Part shown: positions 14,334 to 27,503 of the stretch, piece by piece
Numbering within the stretch: the stretch's first letter is position 1
Layout of the letters: each line of letters opens with the position of its first letter
DNA from: Nocardia sp. NBC_00403
Lineage (GTDB): Bacteria > Actinomycetota > Actinomycetes > Mycobacteriales > Mycobacteriaceae
Length of the DNA: 64,000 bases
Direction of reading: 5' to 3'
Assembly (NCBI RefSeq): GCF_036046055.1
Contig: NZ_CP107939.1
Coordinates: forward strand, 1,674,001-1,738,000
Position numbers and translations under genes: made by a program
The notes under the pieces: generated by a model
What the model was told of the DNA's origin: nothing
Database searches by the model: none
The model's input: the letters and a program-made list of their open reading frames with translations, nothing else

Positions 14334-15131
14334 ATGCTGCTGGCCATCGATGTCCGCAACACCAGCATCGAGCTGGGCCTTTTCTCCGGCAGCGGCACCC
14401 ACGCGAAGCTCGCCAGGCACTGGCGGATGCACACCAATCCACTGCTGACTGCGGACGAGTTCGCCATGCAGGTGCGCGGCCTCGTCGGCGCCCAGGTGGA
14501 GGAAATCGTCGGGGTCTCGGCACTGTCGACGGTTCCGCCGGTGCTGCGTGAGATCCGGACGATGCTGCATCGCTATTGGGAGAATCTGCCGCATGTGGTG
14601 GTGGAACCCGGTGTGCGCACCGGAATTCCGCTGCTCGTCGACAACCCCAAGGAAATCGGCGCCGACCGTATCGTGAACACCCTTGCCGCACACCATCTTT
14701 ACGGCACCGCCGCGATCGTCGTCGATTTCGGCACGGCGACCACCGTCGATCTGGTTTCGGCGAAGGGCGAATTTCTCGGCGGGGTGCTTGCGCCCGGTGT
14801 GGAGATTTCCAGCGAGGCGCTGATCGAGCGCGCCGCGCTGCGCCGGGTGGAGTTGGCGCGCCCGCGCTCGGTGGTCGGCAAGAACACCGTGGAGGCTATT
14901 CAGTCCGGCGCGATTTTCGGTTTCGCGGGCTTGGTCGACGGCCTGATCGATCGGATACGCGACGAATTCGATGCCTTTGCCGGTGATGATGTGACGATCG
15001 TCGCAACCGGTGCGAGCGCGCCGCTGATCGTCCCCGAGTCCGAAACAATCGACCACCACCAGCCGCATCTGACCCTGACCGGCCTGCGTCTGGTCTACGA
15101 ACGTAACCAGCGCAGGAAGGGAACTGCTTGA
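14334..15131 (+). CDS. coaX: Type III pantothenate kinase
   Basis: Phosphorylates pantothenate, the first committed step to CoA. It has 265 residues of ASKHA fold: phosphate motif [14 protein letters not shown] (with Arg where most type III enzymes have Gly, as in M. tuberculosis CoaX), [20 protein letters not shown], the catalytic [14 protein letters not shown] and [11 protein letters not shown]. It follows panD by 5 bp and closes the operon. M. tuberculosis CoaX has been reported inactive in vitro; here the [10 protein letters not shown] motif keeps the usual GTATT residues rather than the altered GSSIC seen there, so this copy may be active. Confidence 0.92.
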
Positions 15132-15192
15132 TGTCCCCGCTTTCCACTATTGGGAAGGCGAAAGGAAATCGAGTGGGCGGTTCACGCTCTGC

Positions 15193-15206
15193 TACACTCG
15201 CAACCG
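15193..15206 (+). promoter_or_regulatory. Promoter -10 for a leaderless transcript
   Basis: TACACT at 15193-15198 is followed after 7 bases by the GTG of the cysteine leader ORF at 15206, which is the expected transcription start distance. This predicts a leaderless mRNA whose first codon is the GTG. Confidence 0.6.
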
Positions 15207-15247
15207 TGTATTTCCGTGTGCGCACCCAGGAGTGTTGTCGAGGCTGA
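15206..15247 (+). CDS. Cysteine-rich leader peptide (13 aa, probably leaderless)
   Basis: GTG start, sequence VYFRVRTQECCRG, stop TGA at 15245. The adjacent Cys codons 10 and 11 (15233-15238) lie immediately before a set of overlapping inverted repeats and 68 bases before the cysteine dioxygenase gene. Leaderless short ORFs with consecutive Cys codons are established cysteine-responsive attenuators in mycobacteria, where a ribosome stalled for Cys-tRNA changes mRNA folding near the next ribosome site. The peptide itself probably has no function. Confidence 0.75.
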   Translation: MYFRVRTQECCRG

Positions 15248-15310
15248 TCCAGCCTCGACCGTTCGAGGCTGACCAAGTCCCTCGACCGTCGATACACTTC
15301 CTGGAGATTC
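15233..15310 (+). promoter_or_regulatory. Putative cysteine-responsive attenuator with alternative hairpins
   Basis: Segment 1 TCGAGGCT (15238-15245), segment 2 AGCCTCGA (15251-15258), segment 3 TCGAGGCT (15263-15270) and segment 4 CCTCGA (15280-15285) allow exclusive pairings 1:2, 2:3 and 3:4. Segment 1 starts within the second Cys codon and ends at the leader stop codon, so ribosome position would decide the pairing. TCCAG at 15248-15252 is also complementary to CTGGA at 15301-15305, which overlaps the ribosome site of the dioxygenase gene. No terminator T-tract is visible, so control would be at translation. Confidence 0.65.
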
Positions 15311-15314
15311 GCTC

Positions 15315-15935
15315 ATGCGTTCTTCTGTTCTTTCTCTTTCTTCCGCACGGGACGCCCTTTCGGCTACTCCGCCGCTGGATCGTGCTGTCGCACCCGCACT
15401 GCCAACCCGCCTGCGTCCCGCCGATCTGCTCCGGCTGACCGACGAGGGTGCCGAGGACGTGCTCAGCGGCCGCTACGACCATCTGCTCCCGGCCGAGGGG
15501 GTGTGGCCTGCCGAGGAACGCTGGGCGACCAGGCTACTCGCCGACGACGAGGTCGATGTCTGGCTGATCAGCTGGACCCCCGGCAAATCCACCGAATTGC
15601 ACGATCATGCCGGATCGCTCGGCGCCTTGACCGTACTGAGTGGCGCTCTCTCCGAATTCCGTTGGAACGGAAAGGAATTGCGGCGCCGCACGCTCACCGC
15701 GGGTGATCAGGCCTCGTTCCCGATCGGCTGGGTGCACGACGTCATGCGTGCGCCTGCCGGCCCACGTCCGGTTACCGACAACACCGCCGAGTCCGTCGGC
15801 CCACTCGATCCGACGCTCAGCGTGCATGCCTATTCGCCGCCGCTCACTGCCATGTCCTATTACGAGGTCACCGGCCACGGCACCCTGCGGCGCACCCGAA
15901 CCGTCCTCACCGACCAGCCCGAAGGCGATATGTAA
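15315..15935 (+). CDS. Cysteine dioxygenase family protein
   Basis: Iron cupin enzyme oxidising cysteine to cysteine sulfinate. The 206 residues hold the metal-binding STELHDHAGSLGALTVLSG (His-x-His) and the third histidine in FPIGWVHDVM, followed by SPPLTAMSYYEV. The start is ATG 15315 with GGAG at 15303-15306. The gene overlaps the rhodanese gene by one base (TAATG), so sulfur handling is coupled. Related thiol dioxygenases (for example 3-mercaptopropionate) cannot be excluded. Confidence 0.88.
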   Translation: MRSSVLSLSSARDALSATPPLDRAVAPALPTRLRPADLLRLTDEGAEDVLSGRYDHLLPAEGVWPAEERWATRLLADDEVDVWLISWTPGKSTELHDHAGSLGALTVLSGALSEFRWNGKELRRRTLTAGDQASFPIGWVHDVMRAPAGPRPVTDNTAESVGPLDPTLSVHAYSPPLTAMSYYEVTGHGTLRRTRTVLTDQPEGDM

Positions 15936-16366
15936 TGACCCGTTTGACCATCGATCAGATGCTGGACAACGCGCGGGCCCAGCTGAACCGGATCTATGCG
16001 TTCGAATTGCCGGAGGCGCTCGCACGGGGCGCGATTCTGGTGGACATCCGTCCCCAGGCCCAGCGCGGCCGTGAAGGCTCGCTGCCCGGCGCCCTTGTGA
16101 TCGAGCGCAATGTCCTGGAATGGCGATTGGACCCCACCAGTTCCGCGCGTTTGGCACTGGCCGCCGATCATGATGTGGAATGGATCATCGTCTGCTCGGA
16201 GGGCTATACCTCCAGTCTCGCCGCCGCCGCGTTGCAGCAACTCGGACTGCATCGGGCGACCGATGTGATCGGCGGCTACCAGGCGATGAAGGCGGCGAGC
16301 CTGCTCACCATCGGAATCCAGGCGCCGCACTTCGCGCGTGCGGTGGATGCGCTCGCCTCGCTGTAA
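15935..16366 (+). CDS. Rhodanese-like domain protein
   Basis: A single-domain sulfurtransferase of 143 residues. It has AILVDIRPQAQRGREGSLPGA, typical of the N-terminal part of rhodanese, and an active-site loop WIIVCSEGYTSSLAA with the catalytic cysteine, ending in VIGGYQAMKAA. Co-translation with the cysteine dioxygenase and the shared cysteine leader upstream indicate a role in sulfane sulfur or sulfite metabolism from cysteine. Confidence 0.88.
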   Translation: MTRLTIDQMLDNARAQLNRIYAFELPEALARGAILVDIRPQAQRGREGSLPGALVIERNVLEWRLDPTSSARLALAADHDVEWIIVCSEGYTSSLAAAALQQLGLHRATDVIGGYQAMKAASLLTIGIQAPHFARAVDALASL

Positions 16367-26142: not shown

Positions 26143-27503
26143 CACACCTCCTGAGCGGTGGAACCACTGGGGTTGTCCGCGTCCTCGGTCGGCACGCTGG
26201 CGGGTAGCCGGGCCGCGACCCGGAATCCGCCGCTCGGCCGTGGGCCTGCGGTGAGTGCGCCGCCGAGCGCGTGCGCCCGCTCCCGCATGCCGATGACGCC
26301 GTTGCCCCCGCTGGATCCGGACCGGGTGCCGGTGGGGCGGGTGTTGTCGACGGTGATGTCGACCGAGTCCGCGGTGTAGCGCACGGTCACCGTCGCCGCA
26401 GCGCCCGGCGCGTGCCGTGCCACGTTGGTGAGTGATTCCTGGATGATCCTGGCCGCTGCCACGTCGATGACGCTCGGCAGCCGGTGCGCGGTGCCGATGA
26501 TCCGGGTGTCGACGATCAGTCCGGCGGCACGGGCCCGCCGCAGGAGGGTGTCCAGATCCTCGATGCTCGGCGCGGGCGTCCGTGGCGCTGGAGTGGGGCG
26601 AAGTGGTGGCGGTTGTGATTCGGACTGCCTGCTGTCCGGGTCGGTCGAATAACGTTGCGCGCGTTTCGAATCGCGGCCTGCGGTGGAGCCGCGTGTGGTG
26701 CCGTCGGTCCGCTCGAGCAGGGGCTCGGCCTGCGCCTCGGCGGCCGTCGCACCGGTGCGAATCGCGTGCAACAACGTGTGCACCTCGGCCAGTGCGTCCT
26801 TGCTCGCGGTCTTGATCGCGGCCAGCGCCGACTCCGCCTGCTGCGGTTTCTTGTCGAACAGTTCCAGCGCCACCGATGACTGCACATTGATCAGCGAAAG
26901 GCTGTGGGCCAGCACATCGTGCAGCTCGCGTGCGATAGCGAGCCGCTCCTCGCTGGCCCGCCGCTGCCGCTGCGCCTGCTCGTCGCGGCGGGCGGCTTCG
27001 GCCCGCTGTCTGCGCGCCACCAGCACCGCCTGTCGTTGCCTGATGCCCTCGGCGATCGAAACCAGCACGCCGAGCCAGGCGATCATCCCGAAAGCCAGCC
27101 ACGGGTCGGCGGGGTGCCCGATCAGCGCGGGCAGTGGCCAGACCAGTGCGAGATAGCCGATCGGCACGAGCGGATAAGTCCACCACCGCGACCCGATGAC
27201 TGCCGCGGAAATAAAGGCGATCACCAGCGAAATGAAGATCGGGCCGTAGCCGTAGCCGCGCAGCAGATACACCGCACAGGACGTGATCGTCACAAGTAGC
27301 ACGGGCAGCGGCTGTGATCGGCGCAGGAGCAGGGCGATGGGTCCGACGAGCAACAGCGTGTAGCCGAGCACGTCCAGCGAGTGCACGCCGGTTTGGCGCA
27401 TGTTCGCATTGCGCCCACCGGCAAGCTGGATCACCCCGACGACGAACGCGAGGCCCCAGTCCCGAACGACCGGGCCACGTTTCGATTCCCCTGGCGCTGT
27501 CAC
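26142..27503 (-). CDS. Sensor histidine kinase (NarX/DesK type)
   Basis: A 453-residue membrane kinase. Several membrane helices occupy the first 150 residues, followed by a coiled linker and the HisKA_3 domain with phospho-His in ERLAIARELHDVLAHSLSLI. The ATPase domain has the N box (IIQESLTNVARHAP) and G box (GGNGVIGMRERAHALGG). Between these domains lies a Pro/Ser/Arg-rich stretch of about 60 residues (from AAEAQAEPLLERTDGTT to PTPAPRTPAP) that is unusually long. It pairs with the response regulator and faces the ABC exporter. Confidence 0.93.
   Translation of the reverse strand: MTAPGESKRGPVVRDWGLAFVVGVIQLAGGRNANMRQTGVHSLDVLGYTLLLVGPIALLLRRSQPLPVLLVTITSCAVYLLRGYGYGPIFISLVIAFISAAVIGSRWWTYPLVPIGYLALVWPLPALIGHPADPWLAFGMIAWLGVLVSIAEGIRQRQAVLVARRQRAEAARRDEQAQRQRRASEERLAIARELHDVLAHSLSLINVQSSVALELFDKKPQQAESALAAIKTASKDALAEVHTLLHAIRTGATAAEAQAEPLLERTDGTTRGSTAGRDSKRAQRYSTDPDSRQSESQPPPLRPTPAPRTPAPSIEDLDTLLRRARAAGLIVDTRIIGTAHRLPSVIDVAAARIIQESLTNVARHAPGAAATVTVRYTADSVDITVDNTRPTGTRSGSSGGNGVIGMRERAHALGGALTAGPRPSGGFRVAARLPASVPTEDADNPSGSTAQEV

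Follow-up and report, generated by a model that had tools for sequence, protein, structure and literature searches.

In an attenuator of the trp type, regulatory codons in the leader precede hairpins that form as alternatives, 1:2, 2:3 and 3:4. In Mycobacterium smegmatis, leaderless short ORFs with polycysteine tracts were reportedly described as attenuators by Canestrari et al. 2020 (doi 10.1111/mmi.14498). Mycobacterial leaders with Cys codons are described as acting on downstream translation (PMC9031893, PMC13236596, PMC9094748). For cys operons, Seliverstov et al. 2005 predicted leader peptides that lack a terminator in species of Mycobacterium, in Propionibacterium acnes and in Bifidobacterium longum (PMC1262725); the genes treated there are cys operons and cbs, N. 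farcinica is among the genomes, and a dioxygenase goes unmentioned in the text. Short Cys-rich actinobacterial leaders likewise make up the NCBIfam families NF042936 (Ms4527A), NF042933 (Ms5788A) and NF042934 (putative leader peptide).

Here we analyse a short ORF with tandem Cys codons that precedes a cysteine dioxygenase (CDO) gene in Nocardia. Judging from sequence comparison and folding models, it very probably serves as a cysteine-responsive translational attenuator that would be ON when Cys-tRNA is scarce, with the stalling and the direction of the response being deduced. It shares with the M. smegmatis attenuators a predicted leaderless-type ORF, consecutive Cys codons, a cysteine-metabolism gene downstream and, in our model, downstream translation that depends on how fast ribosomes move through the Cys codons. 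Unlike them, the Nocardia-type leader targets a CDO-rhodanese pair rather than assimilation, carries two Cys codons only, has nested and duplicated hairpins, and is found in Nocardia and relatives. Cys codon runs near the stop codon and the absence of a terminator hairpin are features in common with the leaders of PMC1262725. With the trp type the CDO leader shares the regulatory codons and the alternative hairpins 1:2, 2:3 and 3:4; it differs in that no terminator was detected and in an additional pairing with the Shine-Dalgarno (SD) region, which is the widely kept part. No Cys leader before a CDO gene was found among the papers that literature searches listed, although the M. smegmatis loci of the Canestrari study may include one. 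When the leader was extended in frame to 24 and 38 aa, NCBIfam returned no Cys-leader model at E up to 10; the 13-aa peptide itself is too short for the scan. The mechanism itself is already published for cysteine operons of mycobacteria; as far as our searches reach, what is new is the CDO target, the duplicated hairpin and the leader family, for which NCBIfam gave no match.

The locus and its leader ORF

The window, meaning the whole stretch of 64,000 nucleotides analysed, comes from a closed Nocardia genome of 8.7 Mb, and its gene order is coaX, leader, CDO, rhodanese and lysS (Table 1). A coaX-like C-terminal motif lies 5' of the leader in 140 of 149 Nocardia loci. We assign the first downstream gene as a cysteine dioxygenase from its CDO_I family membership and its metal and substrate residues, its substrate being a prediction only. 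Residues H96, H98, H141, R73, H171 and Y173, which we take to be the counterparts of mammalian CDO residues, are unchanged across seven aligned family members; given the domain and these six invariant residues, nothing here argues against the assignment. Every one of the 148 Nocardia genomes in which CDO was searched for, themselves sampled from a larger group, has the gene, and the rhodanese active-site motif was detected at 77 of 80 named Nocardia loci.

Table 1. Predicted features of the leader and the genes that follow it (window coordinates)
Feature	Position	Strand	Basis
Extended -10 promoter element, TGC-TACACT	15190..15198	+	Sequence; TAnnnT geometry in 149/149 loci
Predicted leaderless leader ORF, VYFRVRTQECCRG*, 13 codons	15206..15247	+	Same leader type in 149/149 Nocardia loci
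Segment 0, leader arm CCAGGAGTGT, pairs with ribosome-site region	15226..15235	+	Fold; 982/1008 cells; cross-genus matching
Tandem Cys codons TGT TGT, proposed stall site	15233..15238	+	GAGTGTTGTCGAGGC invariant, 149/149
Segment 1	15237..15246	+	Complementarity; 1:2 pairs in 1151/1152 cells
Hairpin copy 1 of tandem repeat	15238..15262	+	Direct repeats, spacing 25 and 27
Segment 2	15250..15259	+	Complementarity; 2:3 pairs in 1007/1008 cells
Hairpin copy 2 of tandem repeat	15263..15289	+	Direct repeats, spacing 25 and 27
Segment 3	15263..15271	+	Complementarity; 3:4 pairs in 842/864 cells, 16 changed both sides
Segment 4	15280..15288	+	Complementarity; 1:4 less well kept, 826/864 cells, 27 A-C
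Segment 5, ACACTTCCTGG, partner of segment 0	15294..15304	+	Fold
CDO Shine-Dalgarno, GGAG	15303..15306	+	GGAG begins 12-13 nt 5' of start codon, 149/149 loci
Cysteine dioxygenase (CDO), cupin	15315..15935	+	Pfam CDO_I 41.9 bits, cut-off 23; PDB cysteine dioxygenases E 1.2e-11
Single-domain rhodanese	15935..16366	+	Pfam Rhodanese 40.4 bits, cut-off 22.2; start overlaps CDO stop

An earlier note, made from the sequence of this window, had described TACACT seven bases before a GTG that opens a 13-codon ORF, taken to be leaderless, with tandem Cys codons. The sequence elements read as described: TACACT occupies 15193-15198, the ORF runs from its GTG at 15206 to 15247, the Cys codons lie at 15233-15238, and the promoter-like geometry, TAnnnT followed after 6-7 nt by an in-frame GTG or ATG, recurs in every one of the Nocardia loci. 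This set comprises the upstream regions of 149 loci from 148 genomes (30 + 119 loci), all of which were kept. The start codon lies eight codons 5' of a Glu codon in 145 loci, the peptide ends in ECCRG in 145 and in ECCRGR in the other four, consecutive Cys codons stand near the end of the short ORF in all 149, and the leader stop, at its usual position, precedes the CDO start by 63-77 nt. A scan at the leader returned no consensus sigma-70 promoter with a -35 element; from the geometry we infer that the transcript starts at the leader GTG and is leaderless.

Each locus holds exactly one core site, and the 15-base GAGTGTTGTCGAGGC is identical in all of them. The exact core also recurs in 79 of the 80 named records of Nocardia, which for the most part are genomes already in the sample of 148; the eightieth, N. 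panacis, has the same leader with CGG replacing CGA. The Cys-Cys leader before CDO is real, far beyond chance. The identity of the core extends to synonymous sites, among them that of a CGA codon, a triplet that accounts for 11 of the 164 Arg codons in eight genes of the window; this points to selection on the RNA. We considered whether the 13-residue peptide itself could be functional, with RNA folding incidental. The invariant C-terminal ECCRG in Nocardia suits this idea; against it, the N-terminal half of the peptide varies freely, conservation is at the nucleotide level with synonymous sites included, and shuffling the leader arm destroys the closure of the CDO ribosome site (see below), so that we regard a functional peptide as scarcely credible.

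Rfam gave no match at gathering score across the window and none at E up to 1 for 15100-15400. Further copies of the leader core within the source genome were considered and rejected: beside one exact copy there are 37 two-mismatch matches, as compared with 27 for a reversed control pattern. A three-mismatch relative, GGGTGTTGTCGACGGTGA, at window positions 26339-26356 falls in the chance range.

Alternating RNA segments

The note had further proposed that alternating complementary segments after the Cys codons allow exclusive 1:2, 2:3 and 3:4 hairpins, with an additional pairing to the CDO ribosome site. In the window, complementarity is 100% for 15237-15246 with 15250-15259, 15250-15258 with 15263-15271 and 15237-15243 with 15280-15286, and 89% for 15260-15268 with 15280-15288. 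The RNA of 15206-15330, the interval whose folding the note had suggested, has a minimum-energy fold of -52.7 kcal/mol (z -4.75), equalled by none of 200 shuffles, in which 15226-15235 pairs with 15294-15304, an interval that reaches two bases into the CDO GGAG. Standard pairs were counted per cell over 144 distinct Nocardia rows, 0:5 being scored over seven core pairs. The paired share is 97% for 0:5, 99.9% for 1:2 and for 2:3, and 97.5% for 3:4, dropping to 14-68% when the 3' partner is slid by 1-3 columns as a control. Both proposals are borne out by these counts, and the ribosome-site pairing additionally by the cross-genus matching and the leader-arm shuffling described below.

Changes on both sides of a pair occur only in 3:4, where A-T becomes G-C in 16 of the 144 rows; 0:5, 1:2 and 2:3 have none. 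On a tree of the upstream sequences (148 rows) the segment-3 change (column 99) arises twice, giving two independent pairs (p 0.5), and the 3:4 co-variation within Nocardia, taken alone, is suggestive and not significant. A nested fold of 1:4 with 2:3 was considered for the free RNA and rejected; because 27 of 144 rows break 1:4 by an A-C mismatch, 1:2 with 3:4 is the preferred arrangement. We also observed that GTGTAT at 15206-15211 is complementary to ATACAC at 15292-15297 before the SD, a pairing that is used in the modelled stalled state.

Could these segments constitute a classical transcription attenuator, with 3:4 as terminator, 2:3 as antiterminator and ribosome position deciding between them? 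The 1:2, 2:3 and 3:4 hairpins are mutually exclusive and all well kept, and segments 3 and 4 co-change in the 16 rows just mentioned, as this reading would have it. However, 15050-15400 contains no terminator-like site of the stem plus U-run type, no more than 14 of the 149 loci have a T-rich tail behind segment 4, and 34 of 40 measured relatives have no room for 3:4 yet keep the Cys codons and the SD pairing. We consider transcription attenuation highly improbable. The alternating segments of the earlier note stand; its likeness to a classical trp-type attenuator is not supported.

Modelled opening of the CDO ribosome site

For translational control, we envision the following sequence of events. 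The transcript would begin at the GTG and its 13-codon leader would be translated at once. As long as the RNA is free of ribosomes, segment 0, the arm at the Cys codons, would pair with the SD bases of CDO, hairpins 1:2 and 3:4 would help this closure, and translation of CDO and of the overlapping rhodanese gene would be poor. A shortage of Cys-tRNA would halt a ribosome at the pair of Cys codons, where it would cover segments 0 and 1; 2:3 would form, the ribosome site would open and CDO would be made; with plentiful cysteine, ribosomes would pass and terminate, and the closed fold would return.

The cost of opening the stretch from SD to CDO start codon was computed with a modelled ribosome footprint at the 149 Nocardia loci. 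Opening energy was adopted in place of mean unpaired probability, which was tried and discarded as a measure of SD openness because weak pairing with downstream coding bases masked it. The mean cost is 15.4 kcal/mol for the free RNA. A ribosome whose A site holds a Cys codon lowers it to 9.0-9.1; the cost rises to 11.0 when the A site holds the stop codon and to 13.4 one codon further on. The stalled state (second Cys codon in the A site) is cheaper than the free state in 148 of 149 loci and cheaper than the stop state in 125. The window itself is a weaker case, with costs of 12.5 (free), 8.8 (stalled), 8.8 (stop) and 10.3 (past), as its stalled and stop costs are equal and the fall from 12.5 is modest. 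Shuffling the 5' leader arm alone, up to the Cys codons, lowers the mean free cost from 15.4 to 9.5; the real free cost exceeds its own shuffle mean in 147 of 149 loci, and in 136 rows at most one of 20 shuffles reaches the real value. In a set of 38 loci of the family, for which a less strict ribosome-site rule was used, the cost averages 11.7 in free RNA, 6.2 in the stalled state and 7.5 at the stop codon, and the stalled state is no cheaper than the free one in L169, L193 and L206 (a tie). In silico, the leader structure closes the downstream ribosome site, and a ribosome placed on the Cys codons opens it.

In the same model the site opens equally for a ribosome at any position between codon 3 and the Cys codons, so that the Cys codons are the last open position and not a unique one. 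This bears on an inverse logic, in which rapid ribosome passage under cysteine plenty would keep the site open and CDO would be made at high cysteine: frequent initiation could suffice, and the outcome would suit the role expected of a degradative enzyme. Against this, the site re-closes as the ribosome reaches the stop codon and beyond, leaving a halted ribosome as the one that holds it open longest, and the same genome has an Ms4527A-type leader before sirA-cysH, a context in which one would naturally expect ON in shortage. We judge the inverse logic unlikely.

Relatives in other genera and origin of the four segments

CDO was detected in 147 of 201 genomes and 26 of 31 genera of the family, some matches being weak and perhaps other CDO types. 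Outside Nocardia, a short Cys-Cys ORF precedes CDO at 44 of 55 loci read (28/35 + 16/20), 28 of these leaders ending in ECCRG. The remaining 11 of the 55 loci have no such leader, which counts against reading it as a switch. As the note had proposed, the interval was compared in relatives; across the Nocardia loci the Cys codons and the complementary segments are kept.

The leader/SD pairing recurs in sequences of its own. Leader arms without CAGGAG are accompanied by changed SD flanks, as in L193 (GGATGTGCG with CGCACATCC) and L194 (CGAATG with CATTCG). In the 19 rows without CAGGAG, the mean energy of pairing with the own SD region is -14.9 kcal/mol, versus -10.8 with those of other genera, and for 12 of the 19 no more than three of 38-42 foreign partners match as well. 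Own pairing beats the foreign mean in 31 of 43 rows and fails to do so in 12; the SD of one row, L101, was wrongly called. Both arms of the predicted leader/SD hairpin are changed yet matching in several other genera. The 1:2 hairpin is complete (7/7 pairs) in at least 22 of 44 relatives, mostly of the ECCRG type, a lower bound as the anchors of L198, L320 and L326 are misplaced; changed yet matching 1:2 arms occur in L209 (TCGGGGC/GCCCCGA, two-sided) and L319.

The distance from Cys codons to SD is 40-49 nt in 34 of the 40 measured relatives, versus 69-70 in L002 and L019, the Nocardia rows measured correctly. Four of the six longer relatives belong to one genus (code g22) and have a second hairpin. 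The window carries two direct tandem copies, 15238-15262 and 15263-15289, which match over 15 nt at 87% and over 10 nt at 100%. The four segments are most simply read as a doubled 1:2 hairpin, found in Nocardia and in genus g22; in Nocardia this hairpin was probably duplicated in tandem, yielding the four segments. Since most relatives are without the repeated segments, the four-segment layout is best viewed as an elaboration, and pairing with the SD region appears to be the ancestral working part. The tandem copy suggests a route by duplication from a simple SD-sequestering leader to a four-segment layout.

Predicted response and other Cys-rich leaders

The anatomy of the leader predicts, with good confidence on the basis of the folding model, that CDO would be ON in cysteine shortage. 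Induction of a cysteine-destroying enzyme in shortage is a paradox that counts against the attenuator reading, and the puzzle, which the earlier note had raised, stands. It is conceivable, though we hold it doubtful, that actinomycete CDO-rhodanese operons belong to a cysteine-starvation response through repeated, unrelated Cys-codon leaders, that CDO salvages sulfur, perhaps from another thiol, rather than disposing of surplus, and that the hairpin duplication in Nocardia adds a second RNA decision step. Translational attenuation at this locus would extend ribosome-read cysteine sensing past assimilation genes to a supposed cysteine-degrading enzyme, by a switch kept in all 148 sampled genomes of one genus. 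Should the predicted direction be true, the function generally accepted for CDO in these bacteria would need rethinking; should it be inverted, a new logic for a stall-controlled leader would follow.

Three further Cys leaders in the same genome match, or lean to, known Cys-leader models, which counts for the attenuator. One, L226 (G000:C1:3127600-3130900), reads MRGSGVRLVARRHVDFKRVCSACCLPDCPR*, lies before sirA-cysH and scores 49.5 bits on Ms4527A (cut-off 45). Another, in front of a rhodanese locus near 1.90 Mb, reaches 32.8 against an Ms5788A cut-off of 45 and 27.2 against an NF042934 cut-off of 27. The third belongs to a second CDO-rhodanese pair at 4.357 Mb (G000:C1:4356673-4357367), which has its own, unrelated Cys leader (L227:880-951), V..LLTRNRVVDLLRVVACACCR*, ending in VACACCR, with TAAGGT seven bases 5' of its GTG and a score of 17 on Ms5788A. 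In this second CDO leader an arm, TCGTGG, is complementary to CCACGA just 5' of the SD. At a second Nocardia CDO2 locus, L376, a short Cys-Cys ORF was not seen. On the minus strand of L217 (2506-2589), a leader VQSDHELMLTRRRTVDLCRLGGCCCLCR* has TAAACT seven bases 5' of its GTG; the gene directly after it begins MSAETRNTASG, and a two-domain rhodanese lies further down.

Elsewhere in the class, 10 of 35 CDO loci read in other families are preceded by candidate Cys-rich leaders, judged as ORFs only and unrelated in sequence. One CDO locus of family f27 has a candidate leader with RCCRCC. In family f19, CDO-like genes at five of six loci (L363, L364, L365, L367 and L368) follow ORFs of the ...CCC..SC type, for example ...RRSCCCCPSC*, and in family f20 (L341, L343, L346 and L348) a minimal ORF, MRCCC*, stands before CDO genes.
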